Shown here in pieces: positions 21,664 through 28,448 of a stretch of DNA of 33,385 bases. The notes under the pieces were generated by a model that saw only the letters and a list, made by a program, of their open reading frames with translations, was not told the origin of the DNA and did not search any database. Positions within the stretch are counted from its first letter, which is position 1, and the number at the start of each line of letters is the position of its first letter. The translations under genes were made by a program, and so were the position numbers. Source of the stretch: Deltaproteobacteria bacterium (GTDB lineage: Bacteria > Desulfobacterota > Dissulfuribacteria > Dissulfuribacterales > QOAL01); assembly GCA_015489365.1 (NCBI GenBank), contig WFZW01000127.1, positions 1 through 33,385 of the forward strand, given 5' to 3'.

Positions 21664-22267
21664 GTATGAACCCAGGATCCTGGGATTTCTGTGCAACTGG
21701 TGCTGCTACACCGCGGCCGATTCCGCGGGAGTTGGCAGGTATCAATATCCCCCGAACCTGCGGGTCATCCGCATCATGTGCACCGGCAGGCTTGATCCCT
21801 CTTTTCCGCTGGAGGCGCTGGCTACCGGCGCGGACGGCGTCTTCGTGGGCGGTTGTCACCCTGGCGAATGCCACTATCAGGATGGAAACTACCACGCGCT
21901 GGTGAGCGCCGCCCTGGTCCATGAAGGCATGGAGATGCTGGGGGTGCGTAAGGAACGTTTTCTCATTGACTGGGCCTCAGCCGCGGAAGGCCCCCATTTT
22001 GTCAAGATAATCACAGACTTCACCCGGCAGGTCACAGAGCTTGGCCCCCTGGGTAAGGCAGAGGGCCGGGATGCCAAGCGACTGCGCAGGCGTCTTTCCA
22101 TGGCGGCCGCGGCGGCCAGGGGCAGGAAGGTGCGCACAGGGCTTATAAACGCTGCCAGGGAGATGATGAAGGGCCGGGATTTCAGCAGGGAGGGCATCGC
22201 CGGCCTTGTCCGGGATAAATGCGGCCGCTCCCTTGAGACCGCGTTGGGAGACAGGGCAGGACGATGA
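21650..22267 (+). CDS. mvhD: MvhD/FrhD-type [2Fe-2S] electron-transfer subunit
   Basis: 205 residues from ATG 21650, which has AGGGAGGAAA upstream and overlaps the hdrA stop by 14 bases; a GTG at 21599 is not needed. The N-terminal LGFLCNWCCYTAADSAG (Cys15, Cys18, Cys19), IMCTGRLDPSFPLEALATGADGVFVGGCHPGECHY and following segments are the MvhD signature. The protein passes electrons between a hydrogenase or formate dehydrogenase and HdrA. Cys19 (codon TGC, 21704–21706) sits where selenoprotein members of the family (VhuD type) carry selenocysteine. The C-terminal 70 residues are basic and less conserved. It ends with ATGA, the fdh fusion start overlapping by four bases. Confidence 0.93.
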   Translation: MATNKYEPRILGFLCNWCCYTAADSAGVGRYQYPPNLRVIRIMCTGRLDPSFPLEALATGADGVFVGGCHPGECHYQDGNYHALVSAALVHEGMEMLGVRKERFLIDWASAAEGPHFVKIITDFTRQVTELGPLGKAEGRDAKRLRRRLSMAAAAARGRKVRTGLINAAREMMKGRDFSREGIAGLVRDKCGRSLETALGDRAGR

Positions 22268-25200
22268 AAGACGCAGGCAGGAAGGTCACCATCTCCATTG
22301 ACGGAAAGCGGATAACCGCCGCGCGGGGGACCACGGTGATGGAAGCGGCGGACAGGGCCGGTATCCACATACCGCGCCTGTGCCATCTGCCCGGAAAGGG
22401 GGAACCTGCCAGGCCATGCCGCCTCTGCACAGTGGATGTGGACGGGAGAAAGGTCAGGGCGTGCGTCACCGAGGTCTGTGAAGGCATGGCCGTGGTTACG
22501 GACAGTCCAGGCATCTTTTCCTACAGGAAGAGTCGTCTTGAAGAACTTGCCTCCATACACTACGGCGACTGCAAGGCCCCGTGCAGCCTCGCCTGTCCCG
22601 GGGGAATAAACGTCCAGGGCTATGTCAATCTCATCGCAAAGCGGGAATTCGGGGCGGCGCTCAGGCTCATCAAGGAGAAAAATCCCCTCCCTGTATCAGT
22701 TGGAAGGGTCTGCCCTGGTTTTTGTGAGACCAGGTGCAGACGAATCCTCCTGGATGAGCCCCTGGCTATCAATCACCTGAAGAGGTTCGTGGCGGATTAT
22801 GCCAGGGAATTTGGTTTCAAAGACGAGGAGATCGGCGAGCCTACCGGCAAAAAGATAGCCGTAATCGGCGGGGGGCCGGCAGGCCTTTCCTGCGCATATT
22901 TCTTGAGGAAACAAGGGCATGGTGTCACCATCTTTGAGGCAGAGGACAGGCTGGGCGGACTTTTACGCTACGGCATACCAGGATATAGACTTCCGAACAA
23001 GGAGGTGGATGGAGAGGTACAGACTGTCCTGAACCTGGGGATCCAGGCAAGGCTGAACAGCCGCTGGGGTAAAGATTTCAGCCTCCAGGATCTAAGGGAC
23101 AAGGGCTTTGAGGCCATATTCATTGCAACCGGCCTTTCCGGTCAGAAACAATTAGAGATAGAGGGCGCCGGGTGCGCCATCTGTGCTCTTGCCTTTTTGA
23201 AGGAGGTCAACCAGGGTGGCAGGCCTTCTATCGGTGCCGAGGTCCTGGTCGTTGGCGGCGGTGATATTGCCGTTGACGCGGCCAGGAGCGCAAGGCGCCT
23301 TGGCGCAAAGCAGGTAACGGTGGTCTATCCAAGGTCCAGGGTTGAGCTTCCCGCCCATCAAAGGGATATCGAAGAGGCTGAAAGGGAAGGGGTCCAGTTT
23401 TTCCTCATGGCCACTCCAATGAAGATTATGGGAGAGGGTGGGAGGCTCAAGGTGGAGTTGGCGCGGACCGTATTGGATGAACCTGACCAAAGAGGCATCC
23501 GTCACCCTGTCCCCATGCCGGGTTCACGTCTCTACTGGACGGGGGACACAATCATTTCGGCCCTTGGCCAGGAGGGAGATCCCGGTTTTCAAGCCTACGG
23601 GGAACTTGAGGCCTCCATCCAGCTTACCCCCAAAAAGACCATAAAGGTCCATCCGGGCACCATGAAGACCAGCGTGGAAGGCATCTATGCCGGGGGGGGA
23701 CCTGGCCACCGGCCCAAGGACGGTAATCCAGGCAGTGGCCGGCGGCCGGCGCGCTGCGGAGGCCATCCATGCATATCTCATGCAGGAAAAGGTCGGGACT
23801 TTCGAGCCCCGTTTTAATTTTACCAGGGGAAAACGTTTTGAAGACGTGGATATGCACAACTTTGATGGCTGCAATATCCAGTTGAATGAGACCATGCCCT
23901 CAAGACCGCCTGAGCACAGGCTTGGGGACTTTGACGAGGCGGAGCTTGGTTTTTCAGAGGAGATGGCGGTCAGGGAGGCCCGCCGCTGCCTCCAGTGCGG
24001 CTGCCTTGGGCTTTCAAAGTGCACCCTTAGAGAACTTTGCATTGGTTACAAGGTCAAGGCAAAAAAGGCCGGGAAGAGGCTCAAATACAGGGTTGATAGC
24101 CGCCATCCATTTATAGTGGTGGATGCCAACAAGTGTGTTGGCTGCTCAAGGTGCGAGAGGAGTTGTGCATACGGGGCATTGGAATTGCGCATCAGGACAG
24201 ATCAAGGCACACAAATTATAACCAGTCTCTCTATAGGGTTTAATGAGAAATGTGTCTCCTGCGGGGCCTGCGTGGATGCCTGCCCCACCGGGGCGCTCAC
24301 CAAGAAGGGCCTCTATGTCCCGCTCCTTCCGGGAGCAGCAGAGGTGACCCAGAGCGTCTGTACCTATTGCGGGACCGGGTGCAACATAAATATCCACGCC
24401 AGGCACGACGTGATCCTTGAGGTAAAGGCAGACCCGCTCCAGCCCCCCAACCACGGCGACCTCTGCGTAAAGGGCAGGTTCGGTTTTGATTTTTACCGCC
24501 ACCCGGACCGGCTCACCCATCCCCTGGTGCGGATGAGCCGGGATGAGCCCTTCCGGAGGGCCTCCTGGGATGAGGCCATCTCCCTTGCTGCCGGCGGGTT
24601 TGCGAGGATCAGGGATGGCTACGGCCCGGAGGCCCTCGGGGTCGTCACCTCGTCACGGTGTGAGAACGAGGTCAACTACCTGGCCCAGAAGCTCTGCCGG
24701 GTGGTCTTTAGGAGCAACAACGTGGACAACTGCGCCAGGGTCTGCCACGCCCCGTCGGTCAGCGGGCTGAGGATCGCGCTTGGAAGCGGCGCGGCCACCA
24801 ATCCCCTGGAGGACATCGAGAGGGCGGAGGTGCTGTTTGTCTGCGGATCAAATACCAGCGAGGCCCATCCCGTGGTGGGCGTGAAGGTGCGGCGGGCCGT
24901 CAAGGAGGGGGCAAGGCTTATAGTCATTGATCCAAGGAAGACCGAAGTGGCTGCCATGGCCCATGTCTGGCTTCGGTTGAGACCGGGGACCAACGTGCTG
25001 CTTCTCAACTCCATACTCCAGGTGATCCTCGAGGAGGGACTTGAAAACAGGGAGTTTATCAAGGCAAGGACAGAGGGATTTGAAGGTCTTTGCCGCCACC
25101 TGGAGGCCTTTTCCCCAGAGGCCACCCAGGTCGCCACCGGGGTCGCGCCTGCGCTGGTAAGAGAGGCGGCACGCCTTTATGCGGGCACGGACAGGGGGCT

Positions 25201-26383
25201 GATCCTCTACGGCCTCGGGGTGACGGAACACAGAAACGGGACCAGGGGGGTCATGGCCCTTGCAAACCTGGCACTTGCCACGGGAAACGTGGGCAGGCCA
25301 GGCGCCGGCATCTGTCCCCTCAGGGGACAAAACAATGTCCAGGGCTCCTGCGACATGGGGGCCCTTCCCTCTGTATTTTCCGGATACCAGGACGTCAACG
25401 ATCCGGCGGTCCGGAAGAGGATGGAAGAGGCCTGGGGAGTGGAACTCCCTGCCTCTCCCGGCCTCACCGAGGAAGAGATGTATGGCCAGGCCAGAAGGGG
25501 CCGGTTCAAGGGCCTTTATTGCATAGGCGATGACCCCCTCCACACCCAGGCCGATCTGGCAGCGGTCCGCGAGGCATTTAAAAAGATGGACATGGTGGTC
25601 GTCCAGGACATATTCATGACCGAGACGGCCAGGATGGCCCATGTGGTCCTCCCCGCGGCATGTTTCTACGAAAAGGACGGGACTTTTACCAACGCCGAAC
25701 GGAGAATACGGCGTATCAGAAAGGCGGTTTCGCCCCCGGGCGAGGCCCTGCCGGACTGGGAGATCACCTGCCGCCTGGCCACTGCCATGGGCTACGCCAT
25801 GTCCTACCATGGACCGGCGGAGATCATGGAGGAGATCGCCGGGTGCACCCCGTCCATGGGAGGCGTCAACTACAGGCGGCTTGAGGGTCAGGGCCTCATA
25901 TGGCCCTGTCCGTATGAAGGCCATCCGGGCACGCCGCTGCTCCACCGGGATGCCTTTACCAGGGGAAGGGGCCGGTTCTCGGCGCTCAGCGATGTAAGGA
26001 CCCTGGAAACGCCTGACGAAGACTATCCCCTGGTGCTGATAACCGGGCGCAGACTGGCCCATTACAACAACGGCTCCATGACCAGGCGCTGTCAGGGCCT
26101 GTTGACGCTTGTCCCTGAAGAGACAGTGGAGATCCACCCACGGGATGCCTCACGCCTGGGCATTGAGCAGGGCCAGATGGCCCTTGTCCGTTCCCGCCGG
26201 GGGGAAGTGGAGGTCAGGGCCAGGGTGACGGAACGGAGCCGGCCCGGCACGGTCTTCATGGGCTTTCACTTTGACCGGCCCCTTACCAACCTGCTTACCA
26301 GTCCTGGCCTGGACGAGATCGCCCTCACGCCTGAATACAAGGCGTGCGCAGTGGCGGTCCTGCCCGCGAACAAGGGCGGATGA
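22264..26383 (+). CDS. fdhA: Formate dehydrogenase fused to ferredoxin and GltD/NfnB-like NAD(P)H flavoprotein, interrupted by a +1 frameshift
   Basis: After one frameshift correction this is about 1,372 residues. Order of domains: [2Fe-2S] ferredoxin (Cys in RLCHLPGKG and PCRLCTVDV, 1–80); GltD-type linker with paired cysteines (APCSLACPGG, CPGFCETRCRR); FAD site VIGGGPAGLSCAYFLRKQG and NAD(P) site VVGGGDIAVDAARSA; junction at the G8 tract 23692–23699; [4Fe-4S] pair CVGCSRCERSC and CVSCGACVDACP; then the molybdopterin catalytic unit with CTYCGTGC...LCVKGRFG and active-site CARVCHAPSV. The Mo/W ligand is Cys827 (TGC, 24743–24745), the Sec position of FdhF. It should couple formate/CO2 to NAD(P)H and, with HdrA–MvhD, to ferredoxin. 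As sequenced, the first frame stops at 23817. Confidence 0.88.
23692..23699 (+). other. G8 homopolymer at the fdh fusion frameshift
   Basis: Eight G in the codons for Ala-Gly-Gly of the GltD-type FAD motif (GIYAGG-DLATG). With seven G the flavoprotein runs straight into the formate dehydrogenase half. Same tract length and same direction of shift as in hdrA. Confidence 0.9.
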
Positions 26384-26400: not shown

Positions 26401-26490
26401 GGGGGCGATGGTACTGGTGTGCCCCGCGGGCTGCAAACCCGTTGGCCCTGTCTAGTAAACAGGGAGGAGGTTCGATTCCCCTCGCCCCCT
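26401..26490 (+). tRNA. tRNA with tRNA-Sec body, GCA (Cys) anticodon and U73 (selC-like)
   Basis: 90 bases, no encoded CCA. Acceptor stem 8 bp (26401–26408 with 26482–26489), U discriminator at 26490. D-arm GGTAC/GTGCC (26410–26414 with 26419–26423) around a 4-base TGGT loop, the compact D-loop typical of tRNA-Sec. Anticodon arm 26426–26430/26438–26442, loop CTGCAAA with anticodon GCA at 26433–26435. Long variable arm CCCTGT/ACAGGG (26446–26451 with 26459–26464). T-loop TTCGATT (26471–26477), T-stem GG-A-GG with CCCC, four pairs plus a bulged A at 26468. So it is an 8/4 tRNA mimicking tRNA-Sec but with the CysRS identity elements GCA and U73. It lies 17 bases after fdhA and 23 bases before selB, and is probably co-transcribed and processed out. 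Confidence 0.93.
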
Positions 26491-26513: not shown

Positions 26514-28448
26514 ATGGCCGATACATTAATCATAGGCACGGCAGGCCATGTGGATCATGGCAAGACCTCTCTCATAAAGGCCCTTACAGGTATTGACCTT
26601 GACAGGGACCCGGAGGAAAAGAGGCGGGGGCTTACAATAAACGCGGGCTATGCCAGCCTTGAAATGGATTCAGGCCTGGTATTTTTCGTGGATGTCCCGG
26701 GTCACCAGGCCTATCTGAGAAACACCATTCGTGGGCTCTGGGGGGTAGAGACGGCCATACTGGTGATCGCCGCGGATGAAGGAGTCATGCCCCAGACCAG
26801 GGAACACCTGGCGGTACTGGAAATTCTTGGCGTTTCAAAGGGGATAGTCGTGCTTACAAGGGTCGATCTGGCGGATGAAGAGGTCCTTTGCATGGCGGAA
26901 GACGAGGCAAGGGACCTTGTCAGGGGCACCTTCCTGGAGGCGGCCCCGGTTATCCGTTTCTCTGCCAGGACCGGGCTTGGGAAGGCCGAAGTAAAAACGG
27001 CTATCAAGGGGTTGTTGTCCAGTGCCCTGCACAGGAACGTGGACAGACCGTTCATGATGCCTGTAGACCAGGTGTTCACCGTGGACGGATACGGGACAGT
27101 GGTGACCGGCTCGGTGGCCTCGGGCAGGATCCATACCGGTTCGATGGTTGAGATATGTCCAGGGAAAAGGCAGGACCAGGTACGCCTGCTCCAGGCGGGC
27201 GGCAAGCCGGTCGAGGCGGTGAGGGCAGGGATGCGGGCCGGGATCAATCTCAGGCTGACCGGCCATGGCCAAATCGCAAGGGGTATGGTGCTCGGAGGAC
27301 CTGGATGCCTGCGTGAGGGGAGATTTGTAAATCTGGAACTCCACCTGCTGGACCACCTCAGAGAGCCTTTAAAAAATCATGCCGTGGTGCGTGTCTTCTG
27401 CGGTTCCTCCCATGCCATGGCCCGGCTTGTCTTGATGGAAGGCGAGGTCCTCCTGCCAGGCCGCAAGGCCCTTTGCCAACTGAGATTCAAAGGAGATATC
27501 GCTGCCCTCCCCCTTTTCCCCCTGGTGATTTCCAGCCTCTCTCCTGTAAGGATCCTGGGCGGCGGGCCGATCCTTGAGATCTCAAGGCGCAAGTGGCGGA
27601 AAAAATACAGAGAAAAAGCAGGTTACCTGAAACTGCTTTCTTCCGGGCGCCTTGGTGACATAGTGGTGGCGATCCTCAAAAACAGCCCTGGCAGGCCGGT
27701 TGATCCCGCTGAGATAGCCATAACTTCCGGTCATTCCCTGGTGGATATGGAGAGAGAAATCAGGGCACTTCTGAACAAAAGAGAACTCTTGTATGTTGGT
27801 CAAAGGGTTTATCTTTACCGATATTTCAAAGAGATAACAGACAATGCCATAAGGGCTGTCTCCACGTATAACTGCCAGAGGCACGAATTCCCTGGTATGC
27901 CCATTGAGGAGATACGGAGCAAGTTCCCCGTTTCTGATGAGGGCTTAAAGGATGCGCTTATAGAGGCCCTCAAGGCAGATGAAGGCCTGGAGACCGCAAG
28001 GGGCGACCGCCTCTGCATGGCCGGTTTCAAGCCCTTTTTGCCCAATAGGCTCGAAGGGATTTCCCGGAAGGTCATTTCTTTTCTGGAGAGCCGTGAGCCA
28101 AGGCCGGTTACCTTTTCAGACCTTAAGGGACTGGACTCTGTTACCGAGGCTGACCTGCGAAGGGTAGTCTCTTTCCTCTTTCATAATGGAAAGATTGTCA
28201 GGATATTCAAGTCCCATAGAGGCAACAGGGAGGAGTATATTACAACCGGGTACCTGGAGAAAATAAAGGAGAGGATCAGCCGGCATATAATGCTTCACGG
28301 CAGGCTCACCTTTGAAGACACGGCCACGGTTATTCCCATCGGCAGGCTCAGATTCAATATCCTCGACTACCTTGATTCCATAAGATTTACCATTAGATCC
28401 CCAGATATGTCGCGAACCTTGGATACTGGGCACAAGCACAGGAAATAG
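26514..28448 (+). CDS. selB: SelB-type specialised translation elongation factor, divergent
   Basis: 644 residues, full length. EF-Tu-like GTPase domain with P-loop GTAGHVDHGKT (8–18), DVPGH (about 59–63) and TRVD; two beta-barrels; then winged-helix repeats in the C-terminal half (about 370–640) that in SelB bind the SECIS hairpin of the mRNA. It departs from SelB consensus at usually fixed places: RGLTINAGYA instead of RG(I/M)(S/T)IDLG(F/Y)A in switch I, PGHQAYLRNTIRG instead of PGHE(R/K)F(V/I)KNMLAG in switch II, and PVDQVFT (Asp185-Gln186) where SelB has IDR, the Arg of the selenocysteine pocket. Arg241 (AGMR) matches the other pocket Arg. The ATG at 26514 has only a weak ribosome binding site. 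The gene directly follows the unusual tRNA. Confidence 0.93.
   Translation: MADTLIIGTAGHVDHGKTSLIKALTGIDLDRDPEEKRRGLTINAGYASLEMDSGLVFFVDVPGHQAYLRNTIRGLWGVETAILVIAADEGVMPQTREHLAVLEILGVSKGIVVLTRVDLADEEVLCMAEDEARDLVRGTFLEAAPVIRFSARTGLGKAEVKTAIKGLLSSALHRNVDRPFMMPVDQVFTVDGYGTVVTGSVASGRIHTGSMVEICPGKRQDQVRLLQAGGKPVEAVRAGMRAGINLRLTGHGQIARGMVLGGPGCLREGRFVNLELHLLDHLREPLKNHAVVRVFCGSSHAMARLVLMEGEVLLPGRKALCQLRFKGDIAALPLFPLVISSLSPVRILGGGPILEISRRKWRKKYREKAGYLKLLSSGRLGDIVVAILKNSPGRPVDPAEIAITSGHSLVDMEREIRALLNKRELLYVGQRVYLYRYFKEITDNAIRAVSTYNCQRHEFPGMPIEEIRSKFPVSDEGLKDALIEALKADEGLETARGDRLCMAGFKPFLPNRLEGISRKVISFLESREPRPVTFSDLKGLDSVTEADLRRVVSFLFHNGKIVRIFKSHRGNREEYITTGYLEKIKERISRHIMLHGRLTFEDTATVIPIGRLRFNILDYLDSIRFTIRSPDMSRTLDTGHKHRK

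Follow-up and report, generated by a model that had tools for sequence, protein, structure and literature searches.

A SelB* elongation factor with glutamine at a selenol-pocket arginine position, encoded beside a cysteine-type tRNA

In the genome of a Deltaproteobacteria bacterium (contig WFZW01000127.1), a gene for a SelB-type elongation factor is located directly behind a tRNA with a cysteine anticodon, and one arginine of its selenol-binding pocket is replaced by glutamine. The stretch of DNA analysed, here called the window, is 33,385 nucleotides long. An earlier note on this locus had proposed that the pocket no longer demands a selenol and that the factor and its tRNA co-evolved, so the question is whether this glutamine follows the cysteine identity of the tRNA, and what the pair may deliver.

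The gene pair and its known relatives

The features of the locus are listed in Table 1. The selB* ORF scored 289 bits against the TIGR00475 selB model, above the curated cut-off of 242, and encodes a G domain, domain 2, a SelB beta-barrel and, putatively, a C-terminal arm of winged helices. GTP_EFTU, GTP_EFTU_D2 and Beta-barrel_SelB were above the Pfam cut-off, and none of the Pfam SelB-wing models matched the window protein, unlike 22 of 25 SelB* proteins, which were matched by SelB-wing_3. An AlphaFold2 model, made with an input alignment of 34 ordinary SelB proteins that biases it toward the ordinary SelB fold, was confident along the full length (pLDDT 85) and was closest, among full-length structures, to E. 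coli SelB (5lzb, TM 0.76/0.79 over 639 columns). As the model aligns with this full-length SelB, the whole SelB fold including the winged-helix arm is predicted to be retained, the Pfam wing miss notwithstanding. In the last winged helix, an Arg-Lys pair is found in 111 of 113 ordinary SelB proteins, and the Lys is replaced in SelB*. As the window SelB* has lost both this pair and the matches to the Pfam SelB-wing models, its RNA ligand may be another one.

Table 1. Features of the selB* locus, with positions in the window
Feature	Position	Strand	Basis
Formate dehydrogenase (FDH) alpha part, directly upstream of the tRNA	23687..26383	+	TIGR01591, 831 bits
selC*-type tRNA-Cys(GCA)	26401..26490	+	ARAGORN, Rfam, covariation with 7 homologues
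selB*, second SelB-type elongation factor, 644 aa	26514..28448	+	TIGR00475, Pfam, AlphaFold2 model
Switch I A44-G45-Y46 (E. coli SelB L40-G41-Y42)	26643..26651	+	alignment
Arg73 codon (E. coli SelB Ala70, switch II)	26730..26732	+	alignment
Gln186 codon (E. coli SelB Arg181)	27069..27071	+	alignment
Arg241 codon (E. coli SelB Arg236; retained in 28/28 SelB*)	27234..27236	+	alignment
Gly243 codon (E. coli SelB Ala238)	27240..27242	+	alignment
Arg611-Leu612, last winged helix (Arg-Lys in ordinary SelB)	28344..28349	+	alignment

The adjoining tRNA was called tRNA-Cys(GCA) by ARAGORN and tRNA-Sec by Rfam (59.5 bits). It has a perfect cloverleaf with an 8-bp acceptor stem, a 4-bp T stem with a bulged A (26468) and a long variable arm; its anticodon GCA is at 26433-26435, its discriminator U73 at 26490, and the CCA end is not encoded. 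In an alignment with seven homologues, both sides had changed in 10 of the 28 pairs, which none of 500 shuffles equalled. The tRNA combines Cys identity marks with a SelB-type shape, and the Cys identity and 8/4 GCA form named in the earlier note are borne out. It is separated by 17 nt from the FDH gene in front and by 23 nt from the start of selB* behind.

Feature by feature, the pair matches the already described selC*/selB* system and is a member of it; tRNA-ReC is presumably a further name for this system. It was reportedly described in anaerobes by Mukai et al. 2017. In Syntrophobacterales and Desulfobacterales, the selC* tRNA-Cys has U73, GCA or UCA as anticodon, an 8/4 structure with an A51a bulge and a second selB downstream, and a special CysRS (cysS*) is described only for the Desulfobacterales type with UCA and A1-U72 (PMC7609411). 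CysRS*, SelC* and SelB* occur alongside the normal SelC and SelB and might be used under selenium scarcity (PMC9437257). The window shares with this system the 8/4 tRNA-Cys with A51a bulge, U73 and GCA, the second selB directly downstream, an ordinary selB and a tRNA-Sec at other places in the genome, and a SelB that groups with other SelB* (100/99). It differs by the lack of cysS*, by the Gln at the Arg181 position, by the diverged last winged helix and by the location of the pair directly behind a Cys-type FDH gene. The pocket changes of SelB* may already have been recorded in the primary papers of 2016-2018.

With ordinary bacterial SelB (E. coli, 5lzb; TIGR00475), the window protein has in common the domain order, the predicted full fold, Asp180 and Arg236, whereas R181Q, A70R, A238G, L40A, the missing Lys behind the conserved Arg in its last winged helix and the Cys-type tRNA partner set it apart. 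The tRNA-Sec(GCA) of Aeromonas salmonicida, described as inserting Sec at Cys codons (PMC11415595), is likewise a Sec-shaped tRNA with a Cys anticodon, but the window tRNA has U73, Cys identity and a separate SelB. Another SelB-like factor associated with Cys-tRNA is the archaeal aSelBL (MM1309), a reported binder of Cys-tRNA-Cys (PMC4329189). Unlike the window SelB*, it is archaeal and short, with altered P-loop and switch regions, an ordinary tRNA-Cys and a separate duplication.

The window genome (99% complete) also contains a second, ordinary SelB (contig C227), a tRNA-Sec with UCA and G73 (C103), SelA (C76) and SelD (C51), together with an ordinary tRNA-Cys (C143). It has one CysRS, of ordinary size (C7), and no second CysRS (cysS*) was found in this genome, as the review predicts for the GCA type (PMC7609411). 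Ordinary SelB co-occurs in all SelB* genomes examined except G121 (62% complete), and SelA in all except three incomplete ones. SelB* is thus nearly always found with a Sec system, which fits a role linked to selenoprotein sites. The tRNA and SelB* were paired at 27 loci with variable spacing, and the genes found at SelB* loci included SelD, YedF-like, cysteine desulfurase, HgdB/HgdC-like, HdrA, MvhD and FDH genes, named in part by a family library and for the rest by sequence recognition. In one genome (G260), SelD is located at the SelB* locus and CysRS* directly downstream.

Pocket and switch residues across the phylum

The sequence of E. coli SelB in PDB 5lzb was used as the residue reference, and the numbering of D180, R181 and R236 was confirmed. 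For the survey, a covariance model built from eight selC*-type tRNAs was run across 395 genomes of the phylum, the tRNAs were located and the neighbouring SelB was read, which gave 28 SelB* proteins; these were compared with 113 ordinary SelB proteins. The SelB* proteins form a single clade (support 100/99) apart from ordinary SelB. The window protein is only 59% identical to its nearest orthologue, and the residues invariant across the clade are all present in it.

The alignment to E. coli SelB showed that the substitution described in the earlier note is real, with Gln186 as the equivalent of Arg181, and the two accompanying claims, that the remainder of the pocket is retained (D185 for D180, R241 for R236) and that both switches deviate (A44 for L40 in switch I, R73 for A70 in switch II), were upheld as well. 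The positively charged pocket of Arg181 and Arg236 therefore has its second arginine in the window SelB*, while the first is replaced by Gln. Position 181 is the right position to examine, since the pocket differences between EF-Tu and SelB listed in an EF-Tu engineering paper (H67Y, E216D, D217R and N274R; PMC4150793) align with SelB positions 42, 180, 181 and 236.

At position 181, all 113 ordinary SelB proteins carry Arg, and the SelB* proteins carry Arg (14), Gln (10), Gly (2) or His (2), so that Arg181 is absent in 14/28 SelB* and 0/113 ordinary SelB. The separation is sharper at other positions. Position 70 is Ala in 113/113 ordinary SelB versus Arg in 28/28 SelB*, position 238 is Ala in 112/113 and Gly in 1/113 versus Gly in 28/28, and Leu40, present in 112/113 ordinary SelB, is found in 0/28 SelB*. 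Residue 42 is Phe in every ordinary SelB (113/113) and varies in SelB* (Ile 10, Val 9, Phe 5, His 3, Tyr 1). Since Arg181 and Ala70 are found in 113/113 and Leu40 in 112/113 ordinary SelB, chance or ordinary variation as the source of the residue changes in the window is excluded by this comparison.

Arg181 is near-universal in ordinary SelB, but not strictly so, because the solved SelB structure 4zu9, an ordinary SelB outside the 113-protein set, has Ser at this position; it is therefore not a strict criterion of the SelB family. Judged by the alignments, A70R, A238G and residue 42 are better marks of the clade than the loss of Arg181. Within the survey set, the change at 181 is restricted to the clade yet optional in it, with A70R and A238G as the fixed candidates.

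The glutamine, the anticodon and the possible cargo

If the Gln had co-evolved with the cysteine tRNA, SelB proteins with Gln would be expected always to sit beside 8/4 GCA tRNAs, as the earlier note had suggested. This was not the case. Next to GCA/U73 tRNAs (18 SelB*), position 181 is Arg in 13, Gln in 2, His in 2 and Gly in 1, whereas next to UCA/U73 tRNAs it is Gln in 7/7; next to UCA/A73 tRNAs it is Arg in one and Gly in one. A tie between Gln and the GCA anticodon can be ruled out on these counts. The contig with the Gln-bearing SelB* of G045 stops short of where a tRNA would be. On the SelB* tree, three changes suffice for Arg versus non-Arg at 181, which is too few to show co-evolution of Gln and anticodon. 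The raw Fisher test (p = 6e-12) ignores this shared ancestry, and a tree-based test for a correlation between non-Arg and UCA has no power, with 3 independent pairs only.

What survives of the proposal is the part concerning the pocket. Gln at 181, which the earlier note had asked about in ordinary SelB, was found in 0/113 of them, and a pocket freed from its selenol demand fits the loss of Arg only in the SelB* clade, beside U73 tRNAs, although its link to GCA falls away. The loss of Arg181 does not seem to be necessary for Cys delivery, because the tRNA-Cys of selC* type in D. nigrificans (Desulfotomaculum nigrificans) is delivered by SelB and gives Cys at a Sec UGA (PMC11415595), and in six genomes that have a GCA tRNA of this general type and lack SelB*, the one SelB present has the full ordinary pocket. 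Arg181 is therefore compatible with the presence of a Cys tRNA, and within the survey set it is lost only in the duplicated line.

The explanation that we favour, with a probability of roughly 0.6, is that SelB* is a SelB paralogue forming a private cysteine delivery line with the 8/4 tRNA-Cys, in which Gln186 points to a relaxed selenol pocket and not to a switch. The gene pair, the clade, its residues and the coexistence with a full Sec system are directly established; the tRNA charging, the binding by SelB*, the target codon and the role of each residue are inferred. CysRS would charge the tRNA (U73, GCA) with Cys, and the 8-bp acceptor stem would keep it off EF-Tu and direct it onto SelB*. 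SelB* would then carry the Cys-tRNA to codons that a SECIS-like hairpin marks out, most likely selenoprotein UGA codons, so that Cys could replace Sec, for example under selenium shortage. The GCA anticodon is not cognate to UGA, which counts against the UGA part of this reading. After the duplication, the pocket and switches would have been remodelled, with A70R and A238G in all members and residue 42 unfixed, and Arg181 would have been free to turn into Gln, His or Gly. Gln186 is thus best read as a sign that selection for selenol binding has ceased, and not as the specificity switch itself. A more far-reaching version, which we put forward only tentatively, is that one duplication with remodelling of pocket and switches (A70R, A238G, 42 and in some 181) produced a Cys-specific factor that rejects Sec-tRNA, so that two parallel SelB lines in one cell would contend for recoding sites that are identical or related.

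The FDH gene directly in front of the pair was considered as a client. At the site of UGA in selenoprotein FDH, the window FDH has the Cys codon TGC (24743-24745). Its Sec paralogue in the same genome (L145, G000 contig 237; 57% identical) has TGA there, followed by a hairpin with a 7-bp stem and a GGUCU loop, which the window FDH has lost. In a congener (G001), FDH is one intact ORF that retains TGC, the acceptor stem of the tRNA is decayed (A1-C72 mismatch), and selB* survives, some 230 bases downstream, as a short remnant with 93% identity to window positions 26542-26572. In this congener, the tRNA and selB* decayed together, and FDH did not. With the congener's FDH intact after the loss of selB* and the hairpin lost in the window, the neighbouring FDH is unlikely to be a client of SelB*. 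A sense-codon target within the window FDH was also judged unlikely, with the SECIS-type stem gone and the gene kept in G001 without SelB*. No in-frame UGA was found at the homologous site in MvhD, HdrA, FDH or other neighbours of the fetched loci. In the window, the multi-domain FDH (22264-26383) is broken at a stretch of eight G near 23690 and reads as two ORFs that overlap. As G001 and G022 have a single ORF of about 1380 aa, the break is probably an assembly or sequencing frameshift.

These observations bear on an unlikely but not far-fetched alternative, that SelB* and its tRNA read UGC/UGU Cys codons of the adjoining redox genes (FDH, MvhD, HdrA) and not UGA. The GCA anticodon is cognate to these codons, and the flanks of the pair often hold FDH, MvhD or HdrA genes whose Sec-type sites have Cys. 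However, the hairpin of the Sec paralogue is missing from the window FDH, the congener keeps TGC and an intact FDH after the loss of selB*, and the UCA-bearing group would not read UGC. It is doubtful, too, that Arg181 to Gln was itself the switch from Sec to Cys specificity, in co-evolution with the GCA tRNA, even though Arg181 is lost only in SelB* within the survey set and 181 is among the four positions at which the pockets of EF-Tu and SelB differ (PMC4150793); the Arg in 13/18 GCA-paired and the Gln in 7/7 UCA/U73-paired SelB*, the Ser in 4zu9 and the Arg kept in single-SelB genomes with a selC*-type GCA tRNA all speak against it.

There is little to suggest that the pair is being lost in this genus and retains little function, decay being the cause of the Gln and of the weak C-terminal domain. 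The remnant selB* and damaged tRNA of the congener, the missing Pfam wing domain and the 59% identity to the nearest orthologue would agree with decay, but the 644-aa ORF is intact, the cloverleaf is perfect, the clade-invariant residues are all retained and the full-length fold is confidently predicted; moreover, the orthologues in G022-G024 are intact though they also lack Arg181. We consider it highly improbable that the tRNA has remained a Sec tRNA, now with GCA as its anticodon, and that the pair inserts Sec at UGC. The precedent of Aeromonas salmonicida (PMC11415595), the tRNA-Sec-like shape and the SelA and SelD in the genome could be taken that way, but all SelB*-adjoining homologues have U73 rather than G73, bar two with A73, the genome has a separate tRNA-Sec with UCA and G73, and a SECIS is absent after the nearby UGC.

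Outlook and further loci

EF-Tu apart, little is known about how elongation factors check the amino acid, beyond the tRNA itself. SelB and SelB* offer a natural comparison, with fold and tRNA shape in common and with cargo that is expected to differ, and their fixed (A70R, A238G) and variable (42, 181) differences provide a short list of residues to swap. The system could also show whether these bacteria choose Cys or Sec at the same sites.

Several other loci were recorded in the survey. Genes for an HgdC-type activator and 2-hydroxyacyl-CoA dehydratase-like proteins recur beside selB* at six of them (L129, L130, L131, L138, L190 and L194), with SelD and YedF present at some. The SelB* proteins of L129 (G023) and L130 (G024) have GHVKHGK, not GHVDHGK, as the first GTP-binding motif. 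G227 has two selC* tRNAs (L187 and L203), both with C33 for U33 before the GCA anticodon, and there is no SelB* beside the tRNA of L203. Sec-shaped tRNAs with GCA and U73 were also located at L204-L206, L207, L208 and L209, in genomes with one ordinary SelB. At L199 (G383) and L202 (G311), the 8/4 A51a tRNAs carry UCA and A73, which is neither the Cys-type U73 nor the Sec-type G73, and each adjoins a SelB* that is highly divergent and whose G domain is degenerate; a further SelB* (L249) with no adjoining tRNA is found in G311.
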